Below the pieces are notes generated by a model. The model did not search any database, was not told the origin of the DNA, and worked only from the letters and a program-made list of their open reading frames with translations. DNA of 64,000 bases from Alcanivorax sp. 24 (GTDB lineage: Bacteria > Pseudomonadota > Gammaproteobacteria > Pseudomonadales > Alcanivoracaceae): the NCBI RefSeq assembly GCF_004360225.1, contig NZ_SNUA01000002.1:124001-188000 (forward strand), given 5' to 3'. The stretch's first letter is position 1. The number at the start of each line of letters is the position of its first letter. The position numbers were made by a program, and so were the translations under genes. This document shows positions 48,626 through 63,482 of the stretch, one piece after another.

Positions 48626-50197
48626 ATGCAAGACATCCACGCCCAGCGCATCCTGATCCTCGACTTCGGCTCCCAGTACACCCAGCTGATCGCCCGCCGC
48701 GTGCGCGAAATCGGCGTCTACTGTGAAATCCGTGCCTTCGACATCAGCGCCGAAGAGATCGCCGAATTCGACCCCAAAGGCATCATCCTCTCCGGCGGCC
48801 CGGAATCCGTCACCGCCGCCGAGACCCCCCGCGCCCCGCAAGCGGTGTTCGAACAGGGCGTGCCGGTGCTGGGCATCTGCTACGGCATGCAAACCATGGC
48901 CGAGCAACTGGGCGGCGCCGTCATCGCCGGTGAAAAACACGAATTCGGCTACGCCCGCGTCACCAAAGCCGACGGCAACGACCTGCTCGACGGCATTGTC
49001 GACCACGAAGAAGCCGGCCATGAATACCTGGACGTCTGGATGAGTCACGGCGACCGCGTTGGCACCATCCCTGACGGCTTCGTCGTCACCGCCACCACCG
49101 ACAGCTGCCCCATCGCCGGCATGGCCAACGACGACAGACGCTTCTACGGCATCCAGTTCCACCCGGAAGTCACCCACACCCTCCAGGGCGGCCGCCTGTT
49201 GGAACGCTTTATCCGCGAAATCTGCGCCTGCGACGCCCTCTGGACCCCGGCCAAGATCATCGACGATGCCATCGCCACCATCCAGGAACAGGTCGGCACC
49301 GACGACGTCATCCTTGCCCTCTCCGGGGGCGTCGACTCCTCCGTGGTCGCCGCGCTGCTGCACAAAGCCATCGGCGACCAGCTCACCTGCGTCTTCGTCG
49401 ACAACGGCCTGCTGCGCCACCAGGAAGGCGACCAGGTGATGGAAATGTTCGCCGACCACATGGGCGTCCGCGTCATCCGCGTCGACGCCGAAGACTACTT
49501 CCTCTCCCGCCTGGCCGGCGAAGCCGATCCGGAGAAGAAGCGTAAAATCATCGGCAATACCTTCATCGACATCTTCGACGCCGAAGCCGCCAAACTGAAA
49601 AACGCCAACTGGCTCGCCCAAGGCACCATCTACCCCGACGTGATCGAATCCGCCGCCTCCAAAACCGGCGGCGCCCACGTGATCAAATCCCACCACAACG
49701 TGGGCGGCCTCCCCGAGCACATGAAGCTCAAACTCGTCGAACCCCTGCGCGAGCTGTTCAAAGACGAAGTCCGCAAAATCGGCCTCGAACTCGGCCTCCC
49801 CTACGACATGGTCTACCGCCACCCCTTCCCCGGCCCCGGCCTGGGCGTGCGCATCCTCGGCGAAGTGAAAAAGGACTACGCCGACACCCTCCGCCTCGCC
49901 GACCACATCTTCATCGAAGAACTCAAAGCCGACGGCCTCTACCACAAAACCAGCCAGGCCTTCGCCGTCTTCCTGCCGGTCAAATCCGTCGGCGTGGTCG
50001 GCGACGCCCGCCGCTACGAATACGTGGTGGCGCTGCGCGCCGTCGAAACCATCGACTTCATGACCGCCCGCTGGGCGCATTTGCCCTACGAGTTCCTGGA
50101 GAAGGTCTCCAACCGGATCATTAACGAGATCCCGGGGATCAGTCGGGTGACCTATGACATCTCGTCCAAGCCGCCGGCCACGATTGAGTGGGAATGA
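48626..50197 (+). CDS. guaA: GMP synthase (glutamine-hydrolysing)
   Basis: The 523-residue enzyme aminates XMP to GMP. The glutaminase part has Cys85 (GICYGMQ), the ATP pyrophosphatase loop is SGGVDSS near residue 235, and the C-terminus ends in the normal PPATIEWE, so the gene is intact. Codon use is strongly C-ending. The accessory region begins directly behind it. Confidence 0.97.
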
Positions 50198-50213
50198 TCT
50201 GATCTAGTCTGGT

Positions 50214-50227
50214 AGTAAGGGCTTACT
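50214..50227. promoter_or_regulatory. Palindrome AGTAAGGGCTTACT, copy 1
   Basis: AGTAAG-GG-CTTACT is a dyad typical of a TetR-type operator. The identical 14-mer recurs at 61349-61362 just after a TetR gene. This copy lies 17 bp behind guaA. Confidence 0.6.
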
Positions 50228-50230
50228 TGG

Positions 50231-50265
50231 AAGGCCGCCGGCGCGGGAGCGTCGGCGGCCTTTTT
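50231..50265 (+). terminator. guaA terminator
   Basis: GGCCGCCGGCG and CGTCGGCGGCC pair with one mismatch and are followed by TTTTT. Confidence 0.88.
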
Positions 50266-50319
50266 GTGTTTTGGGCGGGAGTGTTGGTGAAGATATCAGG
50301 AGGCAGCCTGCGGTGGGAT

Positions 50320-50348
50320 TTGTAAGCGGCTGATTTTTCTGCTTTTAT
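50320..50348 (+). promoter_or_regulatory. Candidate outward promoter, junction 1
   Basis: TTGTAA (50320-50325), a 17-bp spacer and TTTTAT (50343-50348) read toward the accessory genes. The equivalent TTGTCA-N17-TCTTAT occurs at the second junction with identical distance (79 bp) to the GTT point, like an integron Pc promoter. Confidence 0.5.
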
Positions 50349-50360
50349 TTCAAATCGTAT

Positions 50361-50433
50361 GAAATCAAGAAAAGGGATATGGCGCTGGCGCGGTCATTGG
50401 GTATTCGAGATGGCGTCCTAATTCCTGTTGGGC
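50361..50433 (+). other. attI-like recombination junction 1
   Basis: The 69-bp block 50361-50429 matches 61477-61545 at 57 positions by hand count and ends CCTAATTCCTGTT. The next bases complete GTTGGGC (50427-50433), which fits the integron core site GTTRRRY. From that point on the two loci differ completely. The complement GCCCAAC starts the attC-like site behind the TIR gene, as expected for one cassette. No intI gene is present in the window. Confidence 0.55.
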
Positions 50434-50525
50434 GTCAAAGGAAGCTCAGGTTGCAGAATGACGCCGAAATCGAAACAAAGAAGAATGAACGACATTAACG
50501 TGGGCGTCGAGTGTCTTTTGAATAT

Positions 50526-50553
50526 AGGCTGGTGAGCCTCTGGCTCACTGCCT
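50526..50553 (+). promoter_or_regulatory. Stem-loop just upstream of the TIR gene
   Basis: AGGCTGGTGAGCC, a three-base loop TCT and GGCTCACTGCCT form a nearly perfect hairpin ending 17 bases before the ATG. It could affect translation initiation. Upstream of it, 50434-50525 shows no other feature. Confidence 0.55.
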
Positions 50554-50570
50554 AAACTGGGAATGAATGT

Positions 50571-51485
50571 ATGAGTGCCGATCTATTTATCTCTTACGCG
50601 TGGACATCAACGGCCCATCGGGATTGGGTTCGCTTGCTTGCTAGCCAACTCCATCTAATCGGCTACGCCGTAAAAATTGATGAGGCGGTTGACTATGGAT
50701 CAAGTCTGCACGGGTTTATGCGAGAGGTTACCGAAGCTGCTCATGTTCTTTTGATTGTCGACGAGAATTATGTAGACCGAGCTAATAAAAAACCAGAGTC
50801 GGGGGTTGGTATTGAGACAAAATGGATAAGCAGGGCTTTTATGGAAAAGCCGGGTACATGGTTGTCAGTTGTCTTCATTCGAAACCCTGATCGCAAGTTG
50901 CCTAACTGGCTTAATGATCACAATCCAAAGGGTTTTGACTTTAACTCTAGCCCTGAAAGTAACGAGTTTCCCGGGGCGGTCCAGATCGACGAAATCTGGC
51001 GATGGATTGAGGGACTGCCGGCTGATAAGGCTCATGCGGTGCCATTGTCGTTGGTTCGTAAACGTGCCGCACGTCTTGAACGTATTGATGCTCGTCGCGA
51101 CCCTGCTCTTTACGCTAATCCTGCCCTCAAAGATCGTGTAACATTTCGATATAAAGACCATGCTCACTATACGGTTGGGTACGGGGAGTACGAATTCAAA
51201 ATAAATTTCAGTGGATGTTCGTACGACAGCGTTTACGTCTATAAAGATAGCGGCCTCAAGGCTGTCGGGCTAATCACCAGTCCAAATTTTGACCCACTCA
51301 GTGTCGAGTCTTTTCTAACTCCTGGGCGAGCTGTTGCACCAAGTGTGGCGCAGAAAGTAGTCCTCCTAAATCCTCAAGGATCACTATGTGTCATTACCAT
51401 TGATGAGGTACAGCGCGAGGTCAACGCTGCAGAGTACGTTCCAGAGCATGTGACATTCACCTACGAAGTATTGGTGAACCACTAA
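50571..51485 (+). CDS. TIR/SEFIR-like domain protein with unknown C-terminal domain
   Basis: The 304-residue protein begins DLFISYAWTSTAHRDWVRLLA, followed by HVLLIVDENYVDRANKKPESGVG. This is the form of bacterial TIR/SEFIR-like domains (about residues 1-150), many of which cleave NAD+ or act in phage defence. The C-terminal half (about 165-304) has charged beta-type segments and no family I recognise. GC content is far below that of guaA. It lies between an attI-like junction and an attC-like site, so it looks like a single-gene cassette. No partner gene of Thoeris type (thsA) is seen. Confidence 0.78.
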   Translation: MSADLFISYAWTSTAHRDWVRLLASQLHLIGYAVKIDEAVDYGSSLHGFMREVTEAAHVLLIVDENYVDRANKKPESGVGIETKWISRAFMEKPGTWLSVVFIRNPDRKLPNWLNDHNPKGFDFNSSPESNEFPGAVQIDEIWRWIEGLPADKAHAVPLSLVRKRAARLERIDARRDPALYANPALKDRVTFRYKDHAHYTVGYGEYEFKINFSGCSYDSVYVYKDSGLKAVGLITSPNFDPLSVESFLTPGRAVAPSVAQKVVLLNPQGSLCVITIDEVQREVNAAEYVPEHVTFTYEVLVNH

Positions 51486-51558
51486 TGCTCTTTTCCATAC
51501 CGAATGCGACGGCAATCCTCGAGTGTCTTGGTTGCCGCTCTGCGTCGCGCATGTTGCC

Positions 51559-51630
51559 GCCCAACAAGTGGCTGTTGGCGGACGCACCTTCGCTGGCCCT
51601 CCGATGCGCCGCAAAGCCATGGCGTTATGT
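51559..51630 (+). other. attC-like integron cassette site
   Basis: The 72-bp imperfect palindrome has R'' GCCCAAC (51559-51565), L'' TGGCT, L' AGCCA and ends at GTTATGT (51624-51630). An inner stem (GCGGACGCA with TGCGCCGC) has an unpaired base, as attC sites do. R'' is the exact complement of GTTGGGC at the start of the preceding cassette. The spacer between the TIR and nuclease genes holds nothing else. Confidence 0.6.
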
Positions 51631-51651
51631 ACAACCCACACCAGAGGTAAC

Positions 51652-52305
51652 ATGAAGAAAGAATTATCTATTGATCAGCTTGGCAAAGAGGCTGCGAAAT
51701 TCGCGGAAATTGAGACTAAGTATGACGAGCCTACGCTATATGGCGTTACTGACGGAAAGGCGGTCGGAACATACCTGGAGCACAAATTTACAGCCTACCT
51801 TGCTGAGAACTACTCTTATCAAGAAGGCAACTCTGCATCGGGCATTGACTTGCCAGGTCTGGGCGTGGATATAAAGGTTACAAGCATTAAACAGCCTCAA
51901 TCGTCGTGCCCTTTCAAGTCGGCCACTCAAAAGGTTTATGGGCTTGGATACAGTCTGCTTGTATTTGTCTACGAGAAGTATGACGATCACGAGAATCGCA
52001 CTGGCAGGTTGGATATGAAGCACACGATTTTTGTTGAGAAAGAAGCAACCGCTGATTACCAGACCACAAAAGGACTTGTAGAGATTCTCAATAGAGACGG
52101 AAATATTGATGATGTCAGCGCATTTTTAGTCGAAAGAAATCTTCCGCTCGACGAAATTAGTGCAAATGAACTGGCAGAGAGAATCCTTAAACATCCGCCC
52201 AGGATTGGGTATTTAACTATATCTAATGCTTTGCAGTGGAGGCTTCAATATCGAAGGGTTATCGACAAGGCTGGTGATGTCGATGGCGTTCTAAGGATTA
52301 GATGA
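51652..52305 (+). CDS. Type II-like restriction endonuclease, PD-(D/E)XK fold
   Basis: The 217-residue protein has GIDLPGLGVDIKVTS (residues 64-78), with D66, D73 and K75 as likely PD-(D/E)XK residues, and a preceding acidic helix (VGTYLEHKF). It lies one base before a DNA methyltransferase gene, the usual restriction-modification pairing. The ATG at 51652 has AGAGGT upstream; the frame from 51523 runs through the attC-like site and is rejected. The recognition site is unknown. Base composition is AT-rich, a sign of transfer. Confidence 0.75.
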   Translation: MKKELSIDQLGKEAAKFAEIETKYDEPTLYGVTDGKAVGTYLEHKFTAYLAENYSYQEGNSASGIDLPGLGVDIKVTSIKQPQSSCPFKSATQKVYGLGYSLLVFVYEKYDDHENRTGRLDMKHTIFVEKEATADYQTTKGLVEILNRDGNIDDVSAFLVERNLPLDEISANELAERILKHPPRIGYLTISNALQWRLQYRRVIDKAGDVDGVLRIR

Positions 52306-52306
52306 T

Positions 52307-53854
52307 ATGGCAAAGACATTAGACAAATGGCAGTTTGGTGATTTTCAAACTCCAAGCGACCTAGCTACGCGTGTCGTTGACGTTCTAAAAAGGAATCATC
52401 ACATTTCGCCTGATTTGATAATTGAGCCAACTTGCGGAAAAGGCGCATTTGTGAGAGCTGCTTTAAGTAGTTTCACTGAATCGAAAGTCGTAGCGTATGA
52501 AGTAAATCCAGAGTACGTTTCGGATGCTAGAGCTTCAATTGAGCCAAATCACGCCGAACGGGTTTCTATTCAGCAAGGTGACTTCTTTCTACTGGATTGG
52601 GAAGAAGTGCTAAATCAAAATACAGGGAGTCTGTTGATTCTCGGTAATCCGCCATGGGTAACTAGCAGTGAATTAGGCGTTATCAATAGCAAAAATCTGC
52701 CCGAAAAGGCTAACTTTCAGGGGCGGCGTGGGATTGAGGCTATAACAGGTTCAGGTAATTTTGATATATCTGAGTGGATGCTGCTTCGTCATGTTGACTG
52801 GCTGGAAAAGCATGATGGCGCGTTGGCAATGCTATGTAAGTATTCTGTCGCGCGTAAGATTATGCGCAAGTTACGCCAGAACAAGGAGCATCGTCTCTTT
52901 GGGCATATCTATTCAATTGATGCGATGAAATACTTCTCGGCTGCCGTTGACGCATGTTTGTTTGTCCTTACAACCGATATAGGCAATGCGGATTGCGAGG
53001 TTTTTGACAGTCTCGAGGCAACTGACCCAGCCTATATCATTGGGGAAAGGGATGGTTTTGTTGTTAGAGATATTGAGACCTATGAAAAATACAGAATTCT
53101 CCGGGGGCAAGATTCAGTCTATATTTGGCGCTCAGGACTAAAACATGATTGCTCGAAAGTTATGGAGCTGGCCAAGCAGAATGACGCTTATGAGAATGGC
53201 TTCAAAACTAAAGTAGATATTGAGCCGACGTTCGTTTATCCGCTTCTGAAGAGTTCTGATATTGGTAACTCAAGAACAGATATTTGCAGACGCTGGGTAG
53301 TGGTTACCCAAAGATCTGTAGGTGAAAATACAGATAGAATAAAATCTGAGGCGCCTAAAACATACAAATATCTCGAGAGCCATGCTGATCGATTAGATTC
53401 TAGAAAAAGCTCGATATACCGTGGAAAACCGAAGTTTTCCATCTTTGGTGTTGGGGAATACACTTTCCTTCCTTGGAAAGTGGCAATATCAGGGCTATAC
53501 AAAAAACTGAATTTCTGTCTGGTTGGTCCAATTGATGGAAAGCCCGTCATCTTCGATGACACCGTCAATTTTCTCTCATTTAAGACAGAGAGTGAAGCGA
53601 AATTTGTACACTCCCTCCTTATGTCTGAGCCAGCCAGAAATTTTTACGATGCGAGCATTTTTTGGGAAGAGAAAAGACCAATTACTGCTGAAATATTAAG
53701 GCGCCTTTCCTTAAAAGAAGTGGCCAGATGTTTAGGGTTGCTGGATGAATATATAAAGTATGTAGAAGCTAGGGAGGCGGGAAACTCTAATGGTCAACTT
53801 AGTCTCGGAATTGCCGAGAAGGCTACGAAATACAAGCGTGCAAGCAGTACATAG
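52307..53854 (+). CDS. DNA adenine methyltransferase, NPPW type
   Basis: This 515-residue SAM-dependent methyltransferase has motif I IEPTCGKGAF (39-48) and catalytic motif IV NPPW (114-117). That order is typical of gamma-class N6-adenine enzymes such as M.TaqI. A long C-terminal part would recognise the target. It partners the nuclease gene one base upstream. Its TAG stop forms the first bases of the IS inverted repeat, so the IS landed exactly at the gene end. Confidence 0.82.
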   Translation: MAKTLDKWQFGDFQTPSDLATRVVDVLKRNHHISPDLIIEPTCGKGAFVRAALSSFTESKVVAYEVNPEYVSDARASIEPNHAERVSIQQGDFFLLDWEEVLNQNTGSLLILGNPPWVTSSELGVINSKNLPEKANFQGRRGIEAITGSGNFDISEWMLLRHVDWLEKHDGALAMLCKYSVARKIMRKLRQNKEHRLFGHIYSIDAMKYFSAAVDACLFVLTTDIGNADCEVFDSLEATDPAYIIGERDGFVVRDIETYEKYRILRGQDSVYIWRSGLKHDCSKVMELAKQNDAYENGFKTKVDIEPTFVYPLLKSSDIGNSRTDICRRWVVVTQRSVGENTDRIKSEAPKTYKYLESHADRLDSRKSSIYRGKPKFSIFGVGEYTFLPWKVAISGLYKKLNFCLVGPIDGKPVIFDDTVNFLSFKTESEAKFVHSLLMSEPARNFYDASIFWEEKRPITAEILRRLSLKEVARCLGLLDEYIKYVEAREAGNSNGQLSLGIAEKATKYKRASST

Positions 53855-55399
53855 TCGCCCCTGAACAATTCCCAAGATGCTGATTTGATGGGTGAACCAG
53901 CCCTGATAGGCTATCCGGAATCGCCAGAAACCGTATTTTAATGGTTCGTTTTCTTGCAATACCGAAGAGAGTTTTCGATGGCACATCGACGCTCGCCCGC
54001 CGAGGGCACCGAGAATCAGGAGCGAGATCTGTTCCGTGCCCGCCTGGATGAAATGATCGATATGAGCCACCCGCTGGTACGCGTCAGTCAGGCGATGCCC
54101 TGGGAGACGTTGATTGACTCGGTGGGCGAGTCGTTGCCGTTGGTGCCGGCGGGCCCGGGTCGTCGTCCGCTCCCCGCGCGGTTGGTGCTGGGGCTGCTGT
54201 ATTTGAAGCATGCCTACGATCTGTCCGACGAGGCGGTGTGCGCCCGCTGGCTGGAGAACCCCTATTACCAGTACTTCTGCGGGGAGGTGTTCTTCCAGAC
54301 TCGGTTGCCGTGCGACCCGTCGTCGTTGACCCGTTACCGCCAACGATTGGGCGAGGCCGGTGTGGAAGAGCTGCTGGCGCAGACCATTGAAGCGGCGAAG
54401 CGGCTCAAGGCGGTACGCCGTTCGGATTTAAAACGAGTGGTGGTAGACAGCACCGTTCAAGAAAAGGACTTGGCGTATCCCACCGACAGTCTGGTGTTGG
54501 AAGTGGCTCGCCAGAAGGTGGTGGAAGCGGCGAAGCACGAAGCCATTCCTCTGCGGCAAAGCTACGCCCGGGTGGGCCCGAAACTGGCGATCCAGGCCGG
54601 GCGTTACGCGCACGCGAAGCAGTTCAAACGAATGCGCGGGGTGCTGCGCAAGCAACGCACAATCCTGGGCCGGTTGCGGCGTTACATCGGCCGCAAAGCG
54701 AGTCCGGAAGCCTTGGAAAGGCTGGCCCCGACCCTGGAGAAAGCCGAGCGCCTGCACTGTCAGACGCCGAAAGACAAGAACAAGCTCTACGCCTGGCACG
54801 CCCCGGAAGTGGAGTGCATCGGCAAAGGCAAAGCCCGGCAGCCCTACGAGTTCGGCGTGAAGGTCGGCATTGCGATCACCGCGAAGAGTGGGCTGATTGT
54901 GGGCGCACTCAGCTTCCCGGGGAATCCGTACGATGGCGATACCCTGGCGGAACACTGGGAACAAACCGGCATTCTCACCGGCGTGGAAGCGGAGACGCTG
55001 ATCGTGGACCTGGGTTACCGGGGCCGGGAACTGGACGGTGCCCGTGTGCTGCACAAGGGCAAACGAAAAACACTGACGCCGAGCGACTGGCGCTGGCTGA
55101 AATGACGACAAGCGGTGGAACCGACCATCGGCCATCTGAAAGCGGAACACCGGATGCAGCGTTGCCATCTGAAAGGCCAGCTCGGAGACGCGTTGAACGC
55201 GGTGCTCGCGGCTGCCGGCTACAACCTGCGTTGGCTGATGCGGTGGTTGATGCTTTTTTGCGCCTGGATACTGGCGTCTGTCATGAGCTGGAACGATGGG
55301 CAGGACGGCGAAACCCCGCTACTGCCAGCCTAAACAGGCACCGCCGTCGCCTCGCATCGACGAAACGAATGGTGGGACCGTTTTGTTCAGGATCGACTA
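53852..55399. mobile_element. IS5-type insertion sequence
   Basis: Terminal inverted repeats are TAGTCGCCCCTGAACAA (53852-53868) and the complement of TTGTTCAGGATCGACTA (55383-55399), matching at 15 of 17. They enclose one transposase gene. A TAG-containing target is usual for the IS5 family; the exact duplication (ATAG/CTAG) cannot be settled. The high GC contrasts with the AT-rich methylase beside it. Confidence 0.82.
53954..55333 (+). pseudogene. IS5 family transposase, interrupted by an in-frame stop
   Basis: The frame would encode 459 residues. The DDE domain shows VVVDSTVQEK, PGNPYDGDTL, VDLGYRGRE and AVEPTIGHLKAEHRM. A TGA at 55103-55105 splits the frame before the catalytic glutamate (DWRWLK-stop-RQAVEPTIG). 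A single CGA to TGA change explains it, because the frame continues without shift to 55333. Without readthrough the enzyme lacks its last acidic residue and is inactive. Confidence 0.88.
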
Positions 55400-55439
55400 G
55401 ATAGGCCGTAATGTAAAGACATGACGTGGACCTCAGCCC

Positions 55440-56081
55440 ATGAAACGACGATGCTTTTTGCCTCCTATCCCCGAGTTCTCCATCGCTGCGGACCTCCTGT
55501 CGCTAGCGGCGGACCACTTGCTCTCCGGGGATCTGGAATCGTGCCAGAAATGTCTGATCCAGGCTGATCTGCGACCACTAAGGGAGTTTGCATACCTCCT
55601 TGCCGGCCCCATTAACCCGGTAATACACCGCCAAAAGAGTAACCCGTCATTTACTCCCGTACCCAAGAAAGATCGGCCGCGCATGCCAAATGCGGCTCAG
55701 AGTAGAGCCATTTTCTCAAGAGATGGTTACCGCTGCAGGTTTTGTGGATCGCGTGTGATTGTAAAGGGCGCACACCGAATATTCGCCAAGTTTTGTCCGC
55801 AAGAGGCCCGCGATGGCACCACGAACGAGGACAAGCATTTCGGACTTACAACATTGGCGGCCTCAATCGACCATCTATTGCCTTATAGTCGGGGCGGCAC
55901 GAATGACGATCGCAACTTGGTAACGGCATGTGGGCCTTGTCAGTTTGGCCGAAATCAATGGACGCTTGAAGAAGTGGAGATAGAAGACCCCTGGAAGTAT
56001 CCAGCTGTCATTGATGAATGGGACGGACTGACGCGATTAATGGTGATGAAGGGTAAGGCGCCTGTTGACCCCAACGTGTAA
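55440..56081 (+). CDS. HNH endonuclease
   Basis: This 213-residue protein has a C-terminal HNH fold: first zinc pair CRFC, then SIDHLLPYSRGGTNDDRNLV with the catalytic histidine, then the second pair CGPC. The N-terminal 90 residues have no recognised motif. It may be a defence or mobile-element nuclease. It starts 40 bp after the IS end, so its own promoter or upstream genes may have been displaced. Confidence 0.8.
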   Translation: MKRRCFLPPIPEFSIAADLLSLAADHLLSGDLESCQKCLIQADLRPLREFAYLLAGPINPVIHRQKSNPSFTPVPKKDRPRMPNAAQSRAIFSRDGYRCRFCGSRVIVKGAHRIFAKFCPQEARDGTTNEDKHFGLTTLAASIDHLLPYSRGGTNDDRNLVTACGPCQFGRNQWTLEEVEIEDPWKYPAVIDEWDGLTRLMVMKGKAPVDPNV

Positions 56082-56155
56082 GCAATGAGGGTCGAGTCTT
56101 GCCTTTTCATACCCCGCTGGCGCGAGAAGACTCGGCGCAAAGCCGGGCCAGACGC

Positions 56156-56266
56156 TCACTGAAGGCGCTCCGGAACAATCGATAGCCACCCGTCCTCCAC
56201 CGTTACGGACACCGGGGCATCAATGGCGAACCCGGCCTGTTGTACCTTCGTGTAGCGCACTGTCAA
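56156..56266 (-). pseudogene. SymE-like toxin remnant
   Basis: A 36-codon minus-strand frame reads LTVRYTKVQ, then QAGFAIDAPVSVTVEDGWL and SIVPERLQ-stop. The two parts resemble the start and end of SymE-type toxins, with the middle (the PAIRLKGQWL-like segment) missing. It is probably a decayed toxin gene with an internal deletion. The frame is too short to be sure. Confidence 0.45.
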
Positions 56267-56302
56267 TATGGTCAGTGCCGATGATTACGGGAAGGAGGTT
56301 GT

Positions 56303-57295
56303 GTGAGCGACATCGTTATTTTTGAGGAGGGCGCCGGGCCGGTGGAGGTTCGCCTGGAGGGTGAGACGGTCTGGCTCAGCCAGAAGCAGATGGCGGAGCT
56401 GTTTGATAAGAACGTTCGGACTATTAACGAGCATGTGAAGAACGTTTTCAAAGAGGGTGAGCTGGTCGAGGATTCAGTTATCCGGAAATTCCGGATAACT
56501 GCCGCCGATGGGAAATCCTACAACACGGCTCACTACCACCTCGATGTCATCATTTCCGTGGGCTACCGCGTTAAATCCCAGCGGGGCGTGCGCTTCCGCC
56601 AATGGGCCACCCGCGTCCTCCGCGAACATCTGACCCAGGGCTACAGCCTCAACAAGCACCGCTTGGCCCGGCAGGGGCTCGCCGAGCTGGAGCAGGCCGT
56701 GGAACTGCTCGGCCAGACCCTGACCCGACAAGAGCTGGTCTCCGACATCGGTCAGGAAGTGGTCGGGCTGATCCTCGGCTATGCGCGCACCTGGCGTTTG
56801 CTCCAGGACTACGATGAAGGCGCGCTGGGCGTGCCTCCCGGGGCCCGCCCGGCCCGCGGTGTGCTGGGCGTGGATGAAGCCCGCCGTGCCCTGGATGCCC
56901 TGGTCGGCGAATTGCACGATAGGGGAGAAGCGAGCGACCTTTTTGCCCGGGATCGGGATGATGGCCTGGCCTCTATCCTCGGAAACCTGGAACAAAGCAT
57001 GTTCGGCGAGCCCCTCTACGGCACCCGCGAGGAACGCGCCGCGCACCTGTTGTATTTCGTGATCAAGAACCACCCCTTCTCGGACGGCAACAAGCGCTCC
57101 GGCGCCTTCCTGTTCCTGCTCTACCTGCGCCAGGAAGGCATGCGCCTGACGCTCAACGAGCAGGGCTTGACCGCGCTTACGCTGCTGATCGCCGAAAGCG
57201 ACCCGAAGGCCAAGGATCTGATGGCCCGGCTCGTTATGAATCTGATTGCGGATGAGATCAGTGTGGCCAATGAGGGTGAGGTGAGTACCGAATAG
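56303..57295 (+). CDS. RhuM-Fic/Doc fusion protein
   Basis: The 330-residue protein has an N-terminal RhuM (virulence protein) domain (VWLSQKQMAELFDKNVRTINEHVKNVF) and a C-terminal Fic/Doc domain with HPFSDGNKRSG, the nucleotidyl- or phosphotransferase motif. It uses GTG with AAGGAGGTTGT upstream. Such fusions occur in genomic islands; the Fic part may modify a host protein. No separate antitoxin gene is seen beside it. The 139-bp spacer to vapB ends in the vapBC promoter. Confidence 0.85.
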   Translation: MSDIVIFEEGAGPVEVRLEGETVWLSQKQMAELFDKNVRTINEHVKNVFKEGELVEDSVIRKFRITAADGKSYNTAHYHLDVIISVGYRVKSQRGVRFRQWATRVLREHLTQGYSLNKHRLARQGLAELEQAVELLGQTLTRQELVSDIGQEVVGLILGYARTWRLLQDYDEGALGVPPGARPARGVLGVDEARRALDALVGELHDRGEASDLFARDRDDGLASILGNLEQSMFGEPLYGTREERAAHLLYFVIKNHPFSDGNKRSGAFLFLLYLRQEGMRLTLNEQGLTALTLLIAESDPKAKDLMARLVMNLIADEISVANEGEVSTE

Positions 57296-57387
57296 ACGTC
57301 GCCCCTCCTCGGCCAGAAACCAGACAGGCAGCTCCGGTTTGCCGATACCCACGGCCCAGGCTCGCAGCACGGCCTACCGCCTGCACC

Positions 57388-57438
57388 TTGATTGCGCTTA
57401 TCGATAGGGGTATCGTAATACAAAACCTTTATCGATGG
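57388..57438 (+). promoter_or_regulatory. vapBC promoter and operators
   Basis: TTGATT (57388-57393) and TATCGT (57411-57416) are 17 bp apart. TTATCGATA (57398-57406) and TTTATCGATGG (57428-57438) repeat the same ATCGAT core on either side of the -10, as expected for autoregulation by an AbrB-type antitoxin. Confidence 0.55.
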
Positions 57439-57446
57439 GTGCTACC

Positions 57447-57653
57447 ATGACCGCCGTGACCGTTTCCCCCAAGTACCAGATCGTCATCCCCAAGGAAATT
57501 CGCGAATCCATGGGCATCGTGTCCGGGCAGAAAGTTCAGATCATGTCTTATCAGGGGCGGATTGAGTTGATTCCCCTAAAGCCCATGAAGGAAATGAGAG
57601 GGTTTCTGAAAGGCATTGATACCAGTGTCGACAGGGAAGAAGATCGGGTATGA
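57447..57653 (+). CDS. VapB/MazE-type antitoxin (AbrB fold)
   Basis: The 68-residue protein begins TAVTVSPKYQIVIPKEIRESMGI, the swapped-hairpin AbrB DNA-binding fold. The C-terminal part would bind the toxin. The start is put at ATG 57447; ATG 57435 is in frame and possible. The stop overlaps the PIN toxin start (ATGA). Confidence 0.85.
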   Translation: MTAVTVSPKYQIVIPKEIRESMGIVSGQKVQIMSYQGRIELIPLKPMKEMRGFLKGIDTSVDREEDRV

Positions 57654-58030
57654 ACGTCGTTGATTCGTCCGCCTGGTTGTCGTATTTCGCCAGCGATAAG
57701 AACTCAATGGTGTTCGCCGAGCCCATCGAAGATCTTCCCGCGCTGCTGGTACCGAGCATCACGATCACGGAAGTGTTCAAGAACGTGCTCCGCCAGCGTG
57801 GCGAAGAGGCGGCGCTGATCGTTACGGCCCACATGAAACAGGGCAAGGTGATCCCGCTGGATTCAGAGCTGGCGATGGATGCCGCTAAATTTGGCGTCCT
57901 TCATAAGCTGCCCTTGGCGGATAGCATTATCTTCGCCACGTCTCAAAAGCATTCCGCCGTACTATGGACCCAGGATAGTGACTTCAAGGGCCTGCCGAAT
58001 GTCAGGTATCTCGCCAGGAAAAAAACATAG
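57650..58030 (+). CDS. VapC-type PIN domain toxin
   Basis: This 126-residue PIN ribonuclease has acidic residues in VVDSSAWLSYF (first Asp), TITEVFKN (Glu), LPLADSIIFA (Asp) and LWTQDSDF (Asp). VapC toxins cut tRNA or rRNA and are held by VapB. Four-base overlap with the antitoxin gene is typical. Confidence 0.88.
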   Translation: MNVVDSSAWLSYFASDKNSMVFAEPIEDLPALLVPSITITEVFKNVLRQRGEEAALIVTAHMKQGKVIPLDSELAMDAAKFGVLHKLPLADSIIFATSQKHSAVLWTQDSDFKGLPNVRYLARKKT

Positions 58031-58103
58031 AACCGGCCGCATAGCAGCGATCAAGTCGCCCCCTCGCCGTGGCTTTCCCTCCATGACTTTTCCCCATGAA
58101 GAG

Positions 58104-59126
58104 CTACCCCGAAACCTGGAACCGCAAGGCGTCGCCCAGCAGAGGCAGGGCTTTGACCCGATACTCGTTACACAAAATATCATCGGAGGCCTTCTTCACC
58201 TCGACCAGCCCGAAAAAGCCCGCGAAATCCAACAGCGTGCGCCAGGTATAGGCGCGGCGTAGCGTTTCCTCGGGGGTAGAGAACGAGTTTGGCGGCACAT
58301 CATTCAGCACCATGGGAAAGGCCCGCAAAAACGCGTCTTCATAAAAGGTTTGCGGCCGTGAGGTATCGCCGTGGCGCCAGAGCAAATACAGGGTGAACAA
58401 AAAAGCCTGCTGGATAAAAGGCACCTCCACATGCCCATCCCGGTAGGCCCAATTGAACTGCTCTGCATAGGCCCTGAACAGCTTGGGATACACCGCCGCC
58501 AGGCCGCCCTCGGCCAGCAGGCGGCGACAGTCGCGGCTGAGGATAAACTTGCCCTTGTAGGTGCGGACCAGCCCCGCTAGCTCCGCCACGACCCGGGTGA
58601 CATGCAGATCGGAAAAGTCCACTTCCCGGTTGATGCCGCCAAAGCGGGTCTCCTCCTGGTACTTTTGCTCGCCCCAGTAGGCCAGGGCGGCGTCGCGGCA
58701 GAAATGGCGGGGCAGGTTGCCCTTGGCAGTGGGCTTCAGGCCCTGCTCGCCGATGGCCTCCACCAACAGACTGAAAAGCCGCGTGATCGGCGCGCTCGGC
58801 GGTGAGTCGAGGACCTCTGGAAAGACAACCAGACGCGGAGAGCTGAACGGCCGGTCCAGCATCCCGGCCATTTGCTCCGGAGACAGGCCGTCGAAGTCAT
58901 CCAGCGGGTGCTGGTTATGGCGGCGCATATGTTCGTTGGCGAAGGACTGGGCTTCTTCCAGTGAATGGAACTCTTGCCCTTGGAGCGCCTCACGCAATGC
59001 CTGGGCCGGGCCTGGCGCACCGGGGCTGGAAGTCGTGGCATCCTCGCGGCCCAGGCAGCAGTGTTTGAATTTTTTGCCGCTGCCGCAAGGGCAGGGGGTG
59101 TTGCGGCCAGTGGATGAATTGCTCAT
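58104..59126 (-). CDS. SEC-C motif protein of unknown function
   Basis: The 340-residue protein has an N-terminal zinc-binding SEC-C motif (NTPCPCGSGKKFKHCC). The rest is mostly alpha-helical in appearance and I recognise no catalytic motif. SEC-C proteins of this size are scattered in accessory regions. The start is placed right before SEC-C (MSNSSTGRN, upstream GGCGCC); the longer frame to 59249 is rejected. Confidence 0.7.
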   Translation of the reverse strand: MSNSSTGRNTPCPCGSGKKFKHCCLGREDATTSSPGAPGPAQALREALQGQEFHSLEEAQSFANEHMRRHNQHPLDDFDGLSPEQMAGMLDRPFSSPRLVVFPEVLDSPPSAPITRLFSLLVEAIGEQGLKPTAKGNLPRHFCRDAALAYWGEQKYQEETRFGGINREVDFSDLHVTRVVAELAGLVRTYKGKFILSRDCRRLLAEGGLAAVYPKLFRAYAEQFNWAYRDGHVEVPFIQQAFLFTLYLLWRHGDTSRPQTFYEDAFLRAFPMVLNDVPPNSFSTPEETLRRAYTWRTLLDFAGFFGLVEVKKASDDILCNEYRVKALPLLGDALRFQVSG

Positions 59127-59235
59127 GGCGCCTCCGCGCGCGAAATGCGGGTGTCGATGATACTTGGGGGCTGGCCGACTAAACAGCCTGCCAGATGGAA
59201 GATTCCGAAGGCTTTCACGCCTATGCGCAGCCATC

Positions 59236-59269
59236 AAGTCTATGCGCAATTAAGGTTGCGCATAGACTT
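59236..59269. repeat. 14-bp perfect inverted repeat upstream of the SEC-C gene
   Basis: AAGTCTATGCGCAA, loop TTAAGG and TTGCGCATAGACTT form a perfect stem; a third half copy (CTATGCGCA) lies at 59221. It may be an operator or a structured leader. The spacer 59127-59558 otherwise holds the heptamer tract and an AT-rich stretch before the HTH gene. Confidence 0.7.
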
Positions 59270-59274
59270 GGATC

Positions 59275-59311
59275 GCCGCCGGACGCCGGACGCCGGACGC
59301 CGGACGCCGGA
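59275..59311. repeat. (GGACGCC)n heptamer tract
   Basis: About five tandem GGACGCC units occur without an opposing arm. This is the purest copy of the heptamer repeat also seen in native spacers at 24.7, 35.4 and 48.5 kb. Confidence 0.85.
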
Positions 59312-59558
59312 CTGGCGTATTGGCGGAAGGCTTGGCGCACATAACGGCGAGGCAGCAAAGACGGAGAAGCTCTCGGTTGTTCGCCGAGGGGCGAAAACGC
59401 CAAATTCCTGGGAATTAGCGATCATATATGATTAATAACAAAGATTAAGTAGTTATATTTGGCGTGTTGTATGCTTTTGGGGAAGTGGCTTTTTACCGCT
59501 AGAGTGCTCAAATAGGATTTCTTGATAGCATTTAGCGCTCTTACATGAAGGCTTAGTG

Positions 59559-59978
59559 ATGACGCCCTCAGCCCCCAAAGGCTCCAACAACTCGACCGCG
59601 ATGCCTCACCCCGTGACGCGGGCACTGCGCCAGCTCGGCCATGACCTGTCGGTGGCCCGCCGTACGCGCCGCTGGACGCAGCAGAACCTGGCCCAGCGGA
59701 TGGACACCTCGGTGAGCACGGTCCGGCGCATGGAAGACGGCAATCCCGGCACGGCCCTGCACACCTTCCTGCGCGCCCTGCACGTGCTTGGCCGCCTTGA
59801 GGACATGGTCAGGATCATGGCGCTGGACCAGGACACCCTGGGCCTGGAATTGACGCAGCAGCAGTTGCCTCAACGGGTGCGGTCACCCGGCGGCAAGAAA
59901 ACAAAGGCGAGACCATCCGGAGCACCGGCGGAAGACGGTCAGACCACCACTGATGAGGACGAGCTCAAAGGCTTTTGA
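59559..59978 (+). CDS. Xre/HipB-like HTH regulator, orphan
   Basis: The 139-residue protein has an HTH at about residues 25-75 (LGHDLSVARRTRRWTQQNLAQRM...VSTVRRMEDG), followed by a helical part (FLRALHVLGRLEDMVRIM) and a disordered tail. HipB-like antitoxins have this form and are normally followed by hipA. Here a ParD gene follows instead, so the kinase toxin is missing. GTG 59556 is an alternative start. Confidence 0.78.
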   Translation: MTPSAPKGSNNSTAMPHPVTRALRQLGHDLSVARRTRRWTQQNLAQRMDTSVSTVRRMEDGNPGTALHTFLRALHVLGRLEDMVRIMALDQDTLGLELTQQQLPQRVRSPGGKKTKARPSGAPAEDGQTTTDEDELKGF

Positions 59979-60048
59979 AGGTGTCGGAACAAACACCCTG
60001 CCTGCCGCCACCGGTTGGAAGACGGCATTGATCCGACGCAAAGGCTTG

Positions 60049-60065
60049 GTATGACATTGTCATAC
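60049..60065. promoter_or_regulatory. parDE operator
   Basis: GTATGACATTGTCATAC is a perfect 17-bp palindrome 24 bp before the parD ATG, a likely autoregulatory site for ParD. Confidence 0.7.
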
Positions 60066-60089
60066 TGTTTGGGCCCAGGAGTACCCACT

Positions 60090-60344
60090 ATGAGCCTGCA
60101 CCGGAAAACCATCACCCTCACCGAACAACAGAACGGCTGGGTAAAGAGCCGGATCGAAAGCGGCCAGTTCGGCAATGACAGTGAGTACATTCGCCATCTC
60201 ATGCGGCAGGACCAGCAAGCCCAGGAACGGCTTGCCACGCTCAGGCAGGCCCTGGTTGACGGCGAAGCAAGCGGCGAGCCCAAGCCCGTCGGTAGGGCGG
60301 CGATCAAGGCGGCTGGCCGTAAGCGGGTGAAGGCGCCGGAGTAG
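60090..60344 (+). CDS. ParD-type antitoxin
   Basis: The 84-residue protein has a ribbon-helix-helix start (HRKTITLTEQQNGWVKSRIESGQFGNDSEYIRHLMRQD). The C-terminus is basic and flexible and would wrap the toxin. Start at 60090 with CCAGGAGT upstream. Its stop overlaps the parE start by one base. Confidence 0.9.
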   Translation: MSLHRKTITLTEQQNGWVKSRIESGQFGNDSEYIRHLMRQDQQAQERLATLRQALVDGEASGEPKPVGRAAIKAAGRKRVKAPE

Positions 60345-60640
60345 TGCGCACGCCGAGCCTTACGCCAAAGGCGGAATCCGGCCTTATCGACATCTGGGTG
60401 TATACCTGCGGAGAGTGGGGCGCGGATCAGGCCGATGACGACCTTGATCAGCTGGAGGCGGGCATGATGCCGCTGATTCAGCCCCCCTTGCTCGGGACCG
60501 ACTGCGCCCATGTTCTTCCCGGGTATCGCCGATTGCAGGTTGAGCATCACGCTGTGTTCTATCGAGTGCTGGAAGAGAAGGTGCTAGTGGTTCGTGTGCT
60601 GCATGAGTACATGGATGCACCGGAAAGGCTTTTGGATTAA
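60344..60640 (+). CDS. ParE-type toxin
   Basis: This 98-residue RelE/ParE-fold protein has LTPKAESGLIDIWVYTCGEWG at the start and RRLQVEHHAVFYRVLEEKVLVVRVLHEYMD at the end, both typical. ParE toxins inhibit gyrase. GTG start directly at the parD stop. Confidence 0.88.
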   Translation: MRTPSLTPKAESGLIDIWVYTCGEWGADQADDDLDQLEAGMMPLIQPPLLGTDCAHVLPGYRRLQVEHHAVFYRVLEEKVLVVRVLHEYMDAPERLLD

Positions 60641-60648
60641 GCGAGTAC

Positions 60649-61293
60649 GTGCTCCCCGGTGCCGCTCCGAGTGGCTCTCGGTCCCACGCGTGGACGTCTC
60701 TGCGGGCCGTACAGCCGACACAACGGCTGGACATCGCCCTGCGCATCCACGCCCGCGCCGGCCTCGGCGACCTGGCCCTCAACACCCTCGCCGACGAAGC
60801 CGGCGTCTCCAACGGCACCGTCTACAACTACTTCCGCTCCCGCGAACAAGTCCTCGAAGCCGTGGGCCTGGAACTCGCCGTCCAACTCTCCGAACAGATC
60901 CTCACCGTCAGCGAAGCCGTCGACAGCGGCGCCGAACGCCTCAGCATCGCCGTGCGCACCTTCATGAACAAAGCCCGCACCGACCCGGACTGGACCCGCG
61001 CCCTGATCACCGTGGTCCGCTACGCCGAAGGCATGCGCTCCGCCCTCGCCAGCTACCTCCGCGCCGACCTCCAAGCCGGCCGCCGCCAAGGCGACTTCCA
61101 CTACGCCCACGAAGAAATGGCCATGAGCATGGTCATCTCCGCCACCCTGGGCGCCATGAACCTTCTCGTGGAAGACGGGGAGGTGGAACACGCCGACCGG
61201 ATTGCCGCGGAGATGGTGTTGCAGGCGTTGGGGGTGCCGGCGGGGGAGGCTGGGCGGATTGCCAAGCTGTCATTGCCGGGGGAGGGTGGTTAG
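60649..61293 (+). CDS. TetR/AcrR family regulator, N-terminus possibly replaced
   Basis: The 214-residue frame contains a TetR DNA-binding domain (LDIALRIHARAGLGDLALNTLADEAGVSNGTVYNYFRSREQVLEAVG) and an all-helical ligand domain. The first 25 or so residues are atypical and no ribosome site precedes the GTG, so the true 5' end may have been lost at the accessory-region border. Codon use is C-rich like guaA, so the gene looks native. The palindrome AGTAAGGGCTTACT lies 55 bp behind it. Confidence 0.75.
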   Translation: MLPGAAPSGSRSHAWTSLRAVQPTQRLDIALRIHARAGLGDLALNTLADEAGVSNGTVYNYFRSREQVLEAVGLELAVQLSEQILTVSEAVDSGAERLSIAVRTFMNKARTDPDWTRALITVVRYAEGMRSALASYLRADLQAGRRQGDFHYAHEEMAMSMVISATLGAMNLLVEDGEVEHADRIAAEMVLQALGVPAGEAGRIAKLSLPGEGG

Positions 61294-61348
61294 CCAGCTT
61301 TGCCGGAGCAAGGGTGGCTGACCTGCGAATTATCTGGTTTGGCTAATT

Positions 61349-61362
61349 AGTAAGGGCTTACT
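61349..61362. promoter_or_regulatory. Palindrome AGTAAGGGCTTACT, copy 2
   Basis: It is identical to the copy behind guaA. The wider context TTAGTAAGGGCTTACTTA is more symmetrical here. It may be the operator of the adjacent TetR protein. Confidence 0.6.
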
Positions 61363-61435
61363 TAAAAAGCCGTTGGCGCTTGGGTGTTGCGGATTTGTTT
61401 GGCTAAGATGCCAGGATAAGGGTGGTTTGAAGTGT

Positions 61436-61464
61436 TTGTCAGTGGGGATGTTTTCTGGTCTTAT
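61436..61464 (+). promoter_or_regulatory. Candidate outward promoter, junction 2
   Basis: TTGTCA-N17-TCTTAT reads toward the DUF6575-like pair, at the same position relative to the junction as in copy 1. Confidence 0.5.
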
Positions 61465-61476
61465 TCTGTACTAGGG

Positions 61477-61549
61477 GAAATCAAGAAAAAGGATACGGCA
61501 CCGGAGCGTTCGTTGGGTATTCGTGTCGGCGCCCTAATACCTGTTAGCT
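61477..61549 (+). other. attI-like recombination junction 2
   Basis: The block is the partner of 50361-50433, ending GCCCTAATACCTGTT and then AGCT. GTCGGCGCCCTAATACC recalls the CGCCCTAAAACAAAG that precedes GTT in class 1 attI. Sequence beyond GTT is unrelated to junction 1 and AT-richer. Confidence 0.55.
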
Positions 61550-61590
61550 GGTTTGGCGGCTCCGCTATGTCGTATAGGAACTAATTTGAT

Positions 61591-62007
61591 ATGGAAGAAA
61601 AAGTCTCAATGTGGCCAGATCATTATCCTGAAAAGTGTCCGCCGGATGATGCGAAAAAAACATCCGGTGTGGTATATAGATTCACCAATAGAACAAACCC
61701 TAAGCAAAAGGACTTTCTGTCTTACTATGACCTAAAGCCAGGAGAGAATTGGGGTAAGAAGGCCTGTCAGGCTAGGGGGTTGTCAGTCTATACGTCGGAG
61801 GAAGATTGTAAAACGGCTATATCATTGGTTCCTGCGCTGAAGAAAAAGAAGCTTTGCATCGCCGAATTGGGTTCGGAGTCTGGTGTGATTGCGCCCACTC
61901 CATCGAAAAACAATTATAACCACAAGACATTGTGGCCACTTATTAGCGCCCAGGACTTGGCTGAAATATTTATGCCAATGGATAACTTGAGGGTGGCTCA
62001 TGCTTAA
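61591..62007 (+). CDS. Hypothetical protein, first of a two-gene accessory unit
   Basis: The 138-residue protein has several cysteines (EKCPPDD, KKACQARG, EEDCKTA, KKLCIAELG) and a SGVVYRFTNRTNPKQKDFLSYY stretch. I do not recognise a family. It overlaps the next gene by eight bases, so the products probably act together. Low GC and its place at the attI-like junction indicate transfer. Confidence 0.6.
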   Translation: MEEKVSMWPDHYPEKCPPDDAKKTSGVVYRFTNRTNPKQKDFLSYYDLKPGENWGKKACQARGLSVYTSEEDCKTAISLVPALKKKKLCIAELGSESGVIAPTPSKNNYNHKTLWPLISAQDLAEIFMPMDNLRVAHA

Positions 62008-63193
62008 TCTTCCTAAGAAAACAATACTAGGAAATCTGCGTGTCGAGACTGTCTTCCAGTTTTATGATATTCCGCGAATTTTCTCATGTATAAATAAGTC
62101 TGGCGCAAGATTTCTAGTATTATCTGTGTTCGATGATTACGAGAGTTTTAAGTGGTTGTACCTGCCTGTATCAGAAGATAGATTCTCCACCATCGTAAAT
62201 AAAGGGGTTGTGCTTAGAGAAGCTCTCCTTTCTCCGGAAGATGGGTACCTTTTTGAAGTGGAATCGAATTTTGCTGGTGAGTCCACTGTGCACCATATAT
62301 TCCCAGAGCAAATTCATTTAGAAGACTTGCCAGATGAAGGTGTCTATCTGGAATCAAATGAAAGCGTCCATCTCGGATTGGGTTTTGTTGATGCTGATCT
62401 TGCGGCAAGCGGATCAAGAAGAGAAACATATAACCTACACTTTTATCCTTGGGATACCAAGCTTCCTGAGATTGACGCAAGAAATTTGGGCGGCATACTT
62501 ACTTCGTTTCAAGAGCTAGCCAATGCGCTTGGTCAATATTGCAAGGGCGACATCACTCTAAAGGGCGCGATTCCTGCTGATGTCCTAGAAGCAACAAAGT
62601 TTAGAGCCACTCAAATTTTCGAGGGTTCGTTTGGGCTACAGCTAAAATCAAAATCGACGTCTGATTTGTTTCATAGCTCATTGGCATCTGATGTTCTTCT
62701 GGAATTAACAAACCTGATTGAGTCTAGGGACAATGAAGATAATATAAGCAACAAACTTCATAATTTAAAGGGCAGGGTTGCATCTAAATATCGTTCTTTC
62801 CTAAGGGAAGTTTCGAAACTTGATTCTCCTATGAAGCTGCATTGGGGTTCACCTAATAGCGAACGTGGTCGTGTTCTGTTGCTATCGAAAAAGGAGATAA
62901 AAAAGGCGTTTGATCTGGTTAGCAAGATAGATATTGATATGTCTGAATCAATAACCTTTAGGGCTGAGTTGTTAGGCTTGGACGTCAAGACTAAACGATA
63001 TCGAGTGCGTCATTTAAGCGATAACGAGGATTATAGCGGAAAGATTCTGGATGAGTCGTTAGAAGCGGCAAGACATTCAGAAATCAATGGAATATATAGC
63101 GTAACTCTAAAAAAGATTGTCGAAACAAATTTTTCATCTGGCGCCGAATATACAAAGTGGGCGCTTGTTGCGTTGGAACCAGCTGACAAGTAG
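62000..63193 (+). CDS. DUF6575-like protein of unknown function
   Basis: The 397-residue protein has an N-terminal part (LGNLRVETVFQFYDIPRIFSC...FKWLYLPVSEDRFSTIV) that recalls DUF6575. The C-terminal half contains SPMKLHWGSPNSERGRVLLL. No membrane segment or known enzyme motif is seen. It is coupled to the preceding gene; such pairs turn up in islands with defence genes (inference). The family name is from memory and unverified. Confidence 0.6.
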   Translation: MLNLPKKTILGNLRVETVFQFYDIPRIFSCINKSGARFLVLSVFDDYESFKWLYLPVSEDRFSTIVNKGVVLREALLSPEDGYLFEVESNFAGESTVHHIFPEQIHLEDLPDEGVYLESNESVHLGLGFVDADLAASGSRRETYNLHFYPWDTKLPEIDARNLGGILTSFQELANALGQYCKGDITLKGAIPADVLEATKFRATQIFEGSFGLQLKSKSTSDLFHSSLASDVLLELTNLIESRDNEDNISNKLHNLKGRVASKYRSFLREVSKLDSPMKLHWGSPNSERGRVLLLSKKEIKKAFDLVSKIDIDMSESITFRAELLGLDVKTKRYRVRHLSDNEDYSGKILDESLEAARHSEINGIYSVTLKKIVETNFSSGAEYTKWALVALEPADK

Positions 63194-63482
63194 CTGTACG
63201 CGGACCCAGTTACGCTCCACTAGATTGGAGTTTGTTTTACACGCTTTACCAACTAAGCTAGCTCAACTCGTCCGGGCCAGTAAGATGGGCGTTAGCGAAA
63301 CTGGGGCCGGTTCAAAAGCTGGCGATGATTGAGCGAAAAATGCTCAGCTTACTGAGCTGTGGCTTTAAATGTTGTAAATGTGGGGATGCGTGAAGTTTTA
63401 ATTTTAGAAGATTTCTGGAGATGGCAAGCATTTAAGCGCTGGTGTTGGGAGGGGGATTATAGTGCTCGTGTCGATTGCTGCG
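63194..63482. other. Intergenic region between convergent accessory genes
   Basis: No gene is seen in these 289 bp. A small hairpin, GCTCAG-CTTA-CTGAGC near 63340, may terminate transcription. GGCGTTAGC near 63288 resembles a cassette core site but lacks a convincing attC palindrome. Confidence 0.5.

Follow-up and report, generated by a model that had tools for sequence, protein, structure and literature searches.

How could different genes come to stand behind two integron-like junctions in a genome that encodes no integron integrase? A textbook integron has one attachment site (attI) beside one integrase gene (intI). In this study, we analysed a 64,000-nucleotide stretch of Alcanivorax sp. 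24 (contig NZ_SNUA01000002.1, positions 124,001 to 188,000; hereafter the window), in which a first reading made from the letters alone (the sequence-only reading) had proposed two attI sites with different cassettes, at 50214-50433 and 61349-61549. Both segments, called platforms 1 and 2 here, are almost certainly orphan attI platforms. It is also probable that they are inherited solitary sites that were formerly served in trans by a distant integrase. As the sequence-only reading had noted, an integrase is missing: none was found at E ≤ 1e-30 in the whole assembly of this genome, where the best match (TIGR02249), at 82.7 bits with the cut-off at 265, scored as other tyrosine recombinases do.

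Identity of the two segments

The two segments share a 69-bp block that ends in GTT, at 50361-50429 in platform 1 and 61477-61545 in platform 2 (crossover G↓TT at 50427-50429 and 61543-61545, respectively). As first read, 57 of its 69 positions agree (83% identity; E=2.9e-13 in the genome). The whole segments are 66% identical across 220 columns under relaxed scoring, and this local alignment ends at GTT, past which the loci differ. We compared the segments with 57 related genomes, 46 of them of Alcanivoracaceae and 13 of the same genus, the window's own genome (G000) included. Genomes are labelled G000-G064, fetched loci carry L numbers, and g2-g8 denote other genera of the family. A 220-bp segment query matched at E ≤ 0.01 in 21 of the 57 genomes, 12 of them among the 13 of the same genus. 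The block copies frequently lay several per genome, a few kb apart and in one orientation, and most full-length matches stopped within query positions 215-220, on GTT or immediately beyond it. Common sequence in an alignment of 31 copies, some of them partial, ran to CCTGTT, with no common columns past the junction bases. The core was likewise conserved up to GTT across the 34 copies of alignment A1, which took in 34 of 41 anchored copies. The recurrence of the block exceeds chance.

A clue to the nature of the block came from its 3' half, which is far more widespread than the 5' half (palindrome and terminator). The latter was found in the copies behind guaA or a TetR-family gene (guaA-type and TetR-type copies), and partly in a few others (e.g. 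L046 and L037); a near-complete palindrome-terminator-attI block was present in 11 of the 13 same-genus genomes. At L054, the 3' half of the block follows a divergently encoded full-length IntI that shares 74% identity with the one of G011. A divergent intI followed by attI is the standard arrangement of the two. The 3' half adjoins intI fragments at L043, L065 and L079, and two further sites lie beside a full-length IntI in G014 and G042. A LexA-box-like motif, CTGT-N8-ACAG, is kept upstream of several intI-linked copies. The 3' part of the block is a homologue of the intI-attI spacer of Alcanivoracaceae, and both blocks in the window were therefore read as attI (model E=2.3e-27 for platform 1, with homology to the spacers in L054, L043, L079 and L065; E=1.9e-23 for platform 2). 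At neither window site was intI found within 1.7 kb upstream, so that neither is a complete integron with intI beside attI. A LexA box was also lacking, the best match having three mismatches in eight positions at both sites; boxes with no mismatch were found at G001_C56, G004_C34 and G021_C14.

We then asked how widely such sites occur. The block model left out 7 of the 31 copies; the attI module model, R1, covers 120 positions. At E ≤ 0.01, R1 matched 31 of the 46 family genomes and all 13 same-genus genomes, with 2 to 9 matches per genome in the latter. Sites of this kind occur in three genera of Alcanivoracaceae, several per genome. Six single-contig genomes had 8 (G006), 7 (G038), 6 (G010), 3 (G047), 2 (G057) and 0 (G064) matches, and the multiplicity is therefore not an assembly effect. 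No R1 match was found in nine genomes of genera g2, g4, g5, g6 and g7, though several of these have intI, and no match to the module was found on plasmids. A degenerate exact core pattern, run over a named genome collection, returned 24 stretches from Alcanivorax, Alloalcanivorax and one metagenome-assembled genome of Pseudomonadales. Solitary attI sites are thus a broader situation, with several sites per genome in three genera, than the sequence-only reading had supposed.

The two platforms also share the order of their parts; all window features with E-values, folds or junctions given here and below lie on the + strand. Platform 1 follows the host gene guaA (GMP synthase, 48626-50197; Pfam GATase 2.9e-45, GMP_synt_C 1.4e-43), and platform 2 lies immediately behind a TetR-family gene (60649-61293; TetR_N 2.7e-10, TetR_C_40 7.7e-14). 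The palindrome AGTAAGGGCTTACT, identical in both segments as first read, stands at 50214-50227, the 5' limit of the platform 1 block, and at 61349-61362; it is retained in most guaA-type and TetR-type copies of the copy alignment. An intrinsic terminator follows between guaA and the attI module (50229-50270; fold -32.5 kcal/mol, z -5.35; called by the terminator scan). Its homologue in platform 2 (61364-61405) has z +0.36 and no call in the scan. Of the two terminators between host gene and attI, the first is thus strong and the second decayed; the hairpin is kept in the TetR-type copy of another genome (L034; -23.7 kcal/mol, z -4.57). Next comes a promoter-like pair, TTGTAA-N17-TTTTAT at 50320-50348, a candidate cassette promoter (Pc), and TTGTCA-N17-TCTTAT at 61436-61464. 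The gap from the second hexamer to GTT is 78 bases in each copy, in keeping with the common distance of 79 bp read earlier. The promoter reading is the weaker one: the hexamers are conserved columns of the alignment, but a sigma-70 scan makes no call at either pair.

An open reading frame (ORF) across attI, at 50379-50429 and in homologues, reads about MTPARSLDIRAGVLIPV and runs on into some cassettes. A selected peptide was considered for the attI core. The synonymous share was 89/276 in frame versus 42/268 and 70/257 in the other frames, which was judged weak, and the start codon is not retained in every copy.

Cassette junctions and turnover past GTT

When a cassette is inserted at attI, the bases after GTT are the reverse complement of the R'' box of the cassette's own attachment site (attC). 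At platform 1, the junction GTTGGGC (50427) is complementary at 7/7 positions to GCCCAAC at 51559, with which a folded attC begins (51559-51630; R'' GCCCAAC, R' GTTATGT). With the AAC/GTT core forced, this attC folds with 18 pairs at -14.2 kcal/mol; unforced, the bottom strand folds at -15.6 kcal/mol with a different pairing pattern. Platform 1 therefore carries a gene cassette of about 1.2 kb (50428-51624), with its attC, at the GTT of attI, which bears out the proposed two attI sites most fully there. Platform 2 proved to be an attI by homology, but a matching attC was not found. An R'' candidate at 63181, AGCTGAC (6/7), was rejected, as a fraction of 0.55 of 300 shuffles folded equally well. 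The attC finder was purpose-written and is not IntegronFinder; its core-only version finds the site at 51559, and its R''-R' pairing version misses it. A single attC was clear on the + strand within 50200-64000, so that the window holds no cluster of attC sites lacking an integrase (CALIN; at least two attC, no intI).

The junction test was extended to relatives. The 118 sites (at least 20 bits) were scored in the fetched loci, some weak R1 matches lying outside these, and are not all independent; 96 of them had a GTT junction and entered the test. Of 47 junctions in a first set, 14 matched perfectly, against a permutation mean of 0.96 and a maximum of 6. In the full set, 28 of 96 GTT junctions were perfectly complementary to the R'' of a downstream attC (mean 2.88 and maximum 11 over 20,000 permutations), and the same R'' search in the 3.2 kb upstream gave 0/96. 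Ten of the 45 same-genus junctions matched. The 28 matched cassettes measure 329-1276 bp, and 23 of these junctions have no intI trace within 1.7 kb. The attC counts showed no preference for the strand of the site (40 on the same strand vs 51 on the opposite one); this was put down to palindromic hairpins, and the junction-match test was used instead.

We next compared sites sharing their upstream DNA. Clustering of the 118 sites on this DNA gave 18 groups and 26 singletons. The upstream neighbours, named by Pfam, were guaA, a TetR-family gene, pdxH with chaC (10 same-genus genomes), ubiD (8 genomes), a GNAT/CN-hydrolase gene (8 g8 genomes), another TetR gene (5) and an M3 peptidase gene (4). 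The 3' DNA of guaA was matched in 45 of 46 family genomes, and TetR homologues precede the TetR-type copies (tblastn). Pairs were counted as homologous upstream over at least 300 bp in one direction and downstream over at least 150 bp within 1.5 kb, the nearest 250 bp to GTT being excluded. Homology running on past GTT, which the sequence-only reading had named as evidence against attI, was rare: 2 of 265 between-genome pairs with homologous upstream DNA shared downstream DNA. The count was 2/227 where neither site has an intI trace, 2/176 without the mixed TetR group, and 2/271 when 300 bp were summed over both search directions. The two sharing pairs were G000_C6/G008_C4, a decayed site, and G003_C30/G004_C49, offset by one cassette. 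As a control, among 207 pairs with 1.5 kb on both sides, homology was found at -3.2 to -1.7 kb in 130 and downstream in 1. Group 1, in which TetR-type copies are mixed with two copies having a guaA-like end, was the exception upstream, with 11 of 67 pairs homologous further out; this points to relocation or duplication of its copies along with short flanking stretches. Breakpoints of the attI copies differ between groups. Cassette-like DNA was also common to non-orthologous sites, for example G001_C12_80299 and G004_C34_42384 (83% over 345 bp), which fits a common pool of cassettes.

The offset pair shows the turnover at the level of one cassette. At guaA, G004 has one extra 1233-bp cassette relative to G003, placed exactly at G↓TT. 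The G003 junction reads ...CCTAATTCCTGTTATATTC..., and G004 reads ...CCTGATTCCTGTTAGCACT, the cassette (an ORF of 366 aa and an attC starting TGCTAAC) and GTTATATTC...; the G003 junction GTTATAT equals the R' of the G004 attC. Identity of the flanks is 94.3% upstream (1304 bp) and 98.5% downstream (1366 bp). Both sites have the complete palindrome-terminator-attI block and no intI trace within 1.7 kb upstream. The most likely explanation is attI-attC recombination, by gain or loss, at an intI-less attI after G003 and G004 had split, unless intI was lost twice with the same outcome. It is mainly because of this difference that we suggest an integrase acting in trans.

Three further observations concern the flanks. 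At L033:12116, L039:2203, L040:15949 and L049:8339, the block is immediately preceded by a repeat of the final 15-18 bases of guaA, with unrelated DNA before it. This looks as though islands had entered at the 3' end of guaA and parted guaA from the attI platform. Groups 10, 11, 16 and 17 (G021, G043 and G045) are non-orthologous sites with a common extra upstream motif, GATGCTCGCCGC...GTCGGGTAGGGCGGTAGCGTG, a sign that copying in that genus may have involved a larger unit. Among the guaA 3' flanks of other genera, several of them at loci not on the right strand, no clean empty site was found.

Possible source of an integrase and competing explanations

If an integrase acted in trans, where was it encoded? 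At E ≤ 1e-30, an integron integrase was found in 23 of the 46 family genomes and in 2 of the 13 same-genus genomes, one of which (G011) passed the curated cut-off. A candidate locus is pdxH-chaC, at which four of 10 same-genus genomes have intI remnants beside attI. The pdxH and chaC genes were found at these 10 same-genus group members, and G014, G042 and G044, with their full-length intI copies, were grouped with them through intI homology (G044 has attI sites remote from its intI as well); because the locus is limited to same-genus members, the source is less certain. The sole full-length same-genus IntI lies at L068:9100-10400 and has an IS-like (insertion sequence-like) sequence at its 5' end; it may have lost its start and promoter. 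The window's own genome has a decayed attI relic at pdxH-chaC (G000:C6:206371, L151), in which the crossover GTT is no longer present; it may be what is left of the genus's own integron. At the ubiD-side sites (L052, L053:12170 and L066), the attI module lies 5' of a divergent ubiD, roughly in the place of intI, and a LexA-box-like motif with one mismatch was seen in L053 and L066 and not in L052.

We propose that both segments are solitary platforms, each with a promoter-like region and attI directly behind a host gene (guaA or the tetR-like gene) and no intI. Related attI sites form a set with them in three genera of the family, many of them at positions that species have in common. Cassettes with attC would have been brought in or taken out at G↓TT by an integron integrase encoded elsewhere, perhaps in the genus's former integron at pdxH-chaC or in a horizontally acquired one. 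The first cassette would then probably be expressed from the platform promoter, and the terminator would insulate the host gene. With the integrase gone from the window's genome, the present cassettes would be frozen unless an integrase re-enters.

Alternatively, the platforms could be fossil integrons, each of which began with an intI of its own and took up cassettes in cis before that gene was lost, independently in each species, with no action in trans. Traces of intI lie within 400 bp upstream of 13 of the 118 sites (full length in 3), a LexA-box-like motif persists at several sites that show no trace of intI, and most of the genus has a broken intI or none, all of which would be expected of such remains. 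However, the complete block is present in 11 of 13 same-genus genomes with an intI trace within 1.7 kb upstream at 0 of 24 guaA and TetR sites, and the downstream DNA at these sites nonetheless differs between species, being shared in 1 of 116 pairs. Capture in cis would require repeated intI losses with the same outcome, and G003 differs from G004 by the exact gain or loss of a single cassette. We therefore regard this explanation as unlikely.

Far less probable is an ordinary duplication of the guaA 3' region, terminator and spacer included, with downstream differences made by insertion sequences, islands and deletions. Partial guaA copies near some blocks (L036 and L047), unrelated DNA parting guaA from the block in some genomes, and an IS-type transposase in the window at 53954-55105 are in its favour. 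Against these stand the 3' part of the block beside intI and at many non-guaA loci, divergence that begins at GTT, and the attI-attC hallmark at 28 of 96 junctions; the concern of the sequence-only reading that the block might be a duplicated gene fragment was thus allayed by the intI-linked spacer of the relatives. Use of the block as an att site by another tyrosine recombinase of Xer or phage type, such as those weakly matching TIGR02249 in this genome, is the least credible explanation, given cassette-sized units with folded attC ends at the junctions and a site linked to intI in relatives. We also rejected the TetR-attI as a delta-attI cassette (a cassette carrying attI), as its upstream breakpoints vary (about -596 to -755 from the palindrome) and do not mark a single crossover.

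Several results weigh against inherited sites served in trans. In none of the 13 same-genus genomes was an intact intI with its own promoter seen: that of G011 has IS-like sequence abutting its 5' end (type recognised by eye), and that of G004 is a fragment. Platform 2 lacks a recognised attC, no R'' equal to AGCTAAC with a hairpin having been found, and is among the 68 of 96 junctions that failed the 7/7 test; cassette decay, IS insertion or the strict finder could account for these failures. Five g8 genomes (G024, G058, G059, G061 and G064) have intI and no R1 match, and the one IntI compared among them (G024) is only 47% identical to that of G011. R1-type attI therefore accompanies only part of the family's integrons. 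Decay is evident in some attI copies (G000_C6, G010_C1_656354 and G008_C6). In-genus distances in five groups were 0.16-0.23 for the core, 0.26-0.34 for the spacer and 0.07-0.27 for the promoter region; the core lies just moderately below the spacer, which suggests moderate constraint only and does not prove continuing selection. Sites formerly served in trans nevertheless remain the explanation we favour. That they form a distributed and actively maintained integron, in which one integrase acts in trans on many inherited chromosomal docks, is a more tentative proposal, to which we give slightly less than even weight.

Cargo and relation to known systems

The cargo of both platforms resembles defence genes. 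The ORF of cassette 1 (50571-51485) encodes a bSEFIR/TIR-like putative defence protein of 304 aa (PADLOC bSEFIR 1.1e-42; Pfam TIR_2 9.1e-9, SEFIR 4e-5). It is followed, 3' of the attC, by type II restriction endonuclease and methyltransferase genes (51652-53854; PADLOC REase_II 2.9e-96, MTase_II 7.8e-172). Behind platform 2 lies a two-gene unit (61591-63193) that is weakly PD-T4-10-like, with gene A at 61591-62007 and gene B, a DUF6575 gene (Pfam 4.1e-25), at 62000-63193; PADLOC gave PD-T4-10_A 1.7e-5, PD-T4-10_B 1.7e-4 and PDC-M63B 6.1e-15. These matches suggest that likely anti-phage genes stand behind both docks of the window. The transposase at 53954-55105 (DUF772/DDE) lies between the restriction-modification genes and later genes and may have destroyed cassette ends. 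At 56303-57295, a single ORF fuses a RhuM-like N-terminus to a Fic/DOC domain. Outside the window, 20 of 27 cassette ORFs were scanned with Pfam, and 10 had a match at E ≤ 0.01 and 10 had none. The matches included HNH (two), TIR/CAP12 and DUF4062; a HEPN match was below the cut-off. PADLOC scans of 5 of the 27 gave two clear matches (PDC-S60 and a PtuB-like HNH), one marginal match and none for two.

Among the literature matches listed, the closest known cases are the conserved-locus CALIN of Xanthomonas (PMC12444791) and delta-attI cassettes (PMC12901181). In the sedentary chromosomal integron of Xanthomonas, intI lies consistently at ilvD (PMC12444791). The sites described here resemble it in having an intI-attI-cassette architecture at an inherited locus and progressive integrase loss; the likeness rests on pdxH-chaC, with its intI remnants beside attI in 4 of 10 genomes. 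Unlike in Xanthomonas, many attI lie here at separate loci common to species, most without an intI trace. With CALIN they have in common that cassettes stand at recurring chromosomal positions with no integrase nearby (PMC12444791, PMC9024848), and CALIN-type arrays are described as mobilisable in trans by a functional IntI (PMC12444791). CALIN are defined by attC clusters, whereas the conserved element here is attI itself; attI outside class 1 is described as poorly known and undetected by the program of PMC9024848. The delta-attI cassettes of class 1 and 2 integrons likewise carry attI away from intI, and IntI1 recombines theirs. They hold mostly attI remnants of 14-18 nt, also one of 244 nt and one full attI1, in mobile arrays (PMC12901181), whereas whole attI modules with a promoter-like region lie here at chromosomal loci. 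Finally, attG secondary sites also receive cassettes outside an integron, but are described as divergent from classical att sites, and the sites here are homologous copies of an intI-linked attI (PMC12901181, PMC12444791). No report of an Alcanivorax attI or of dispersed full attI was among the literature matches listed, a scope that most subscription papers fall outside, and novelty is not proved by this. The one paper in which Alcanivorax, integron and attI all occur names them among its references only.

In these bacteria, attI recurs along the chromosome and usually lacks intI. Programs that seek intI or attC clusters are expected to miss much of this dispersed attI. If the sites do form a distributed integron, many cassettes could be held at once in the first, expressed position, at many docks behind a host gene and each with its own promoter; cassette capture would be uncoupled from the intI locus and would outlast the loss of intI. 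This would make it testable whether IntI acts on distant attI, why first-position capture has been multiplied, and whether the docks collect anti-phage genes, as both platforms of the window seem to do.

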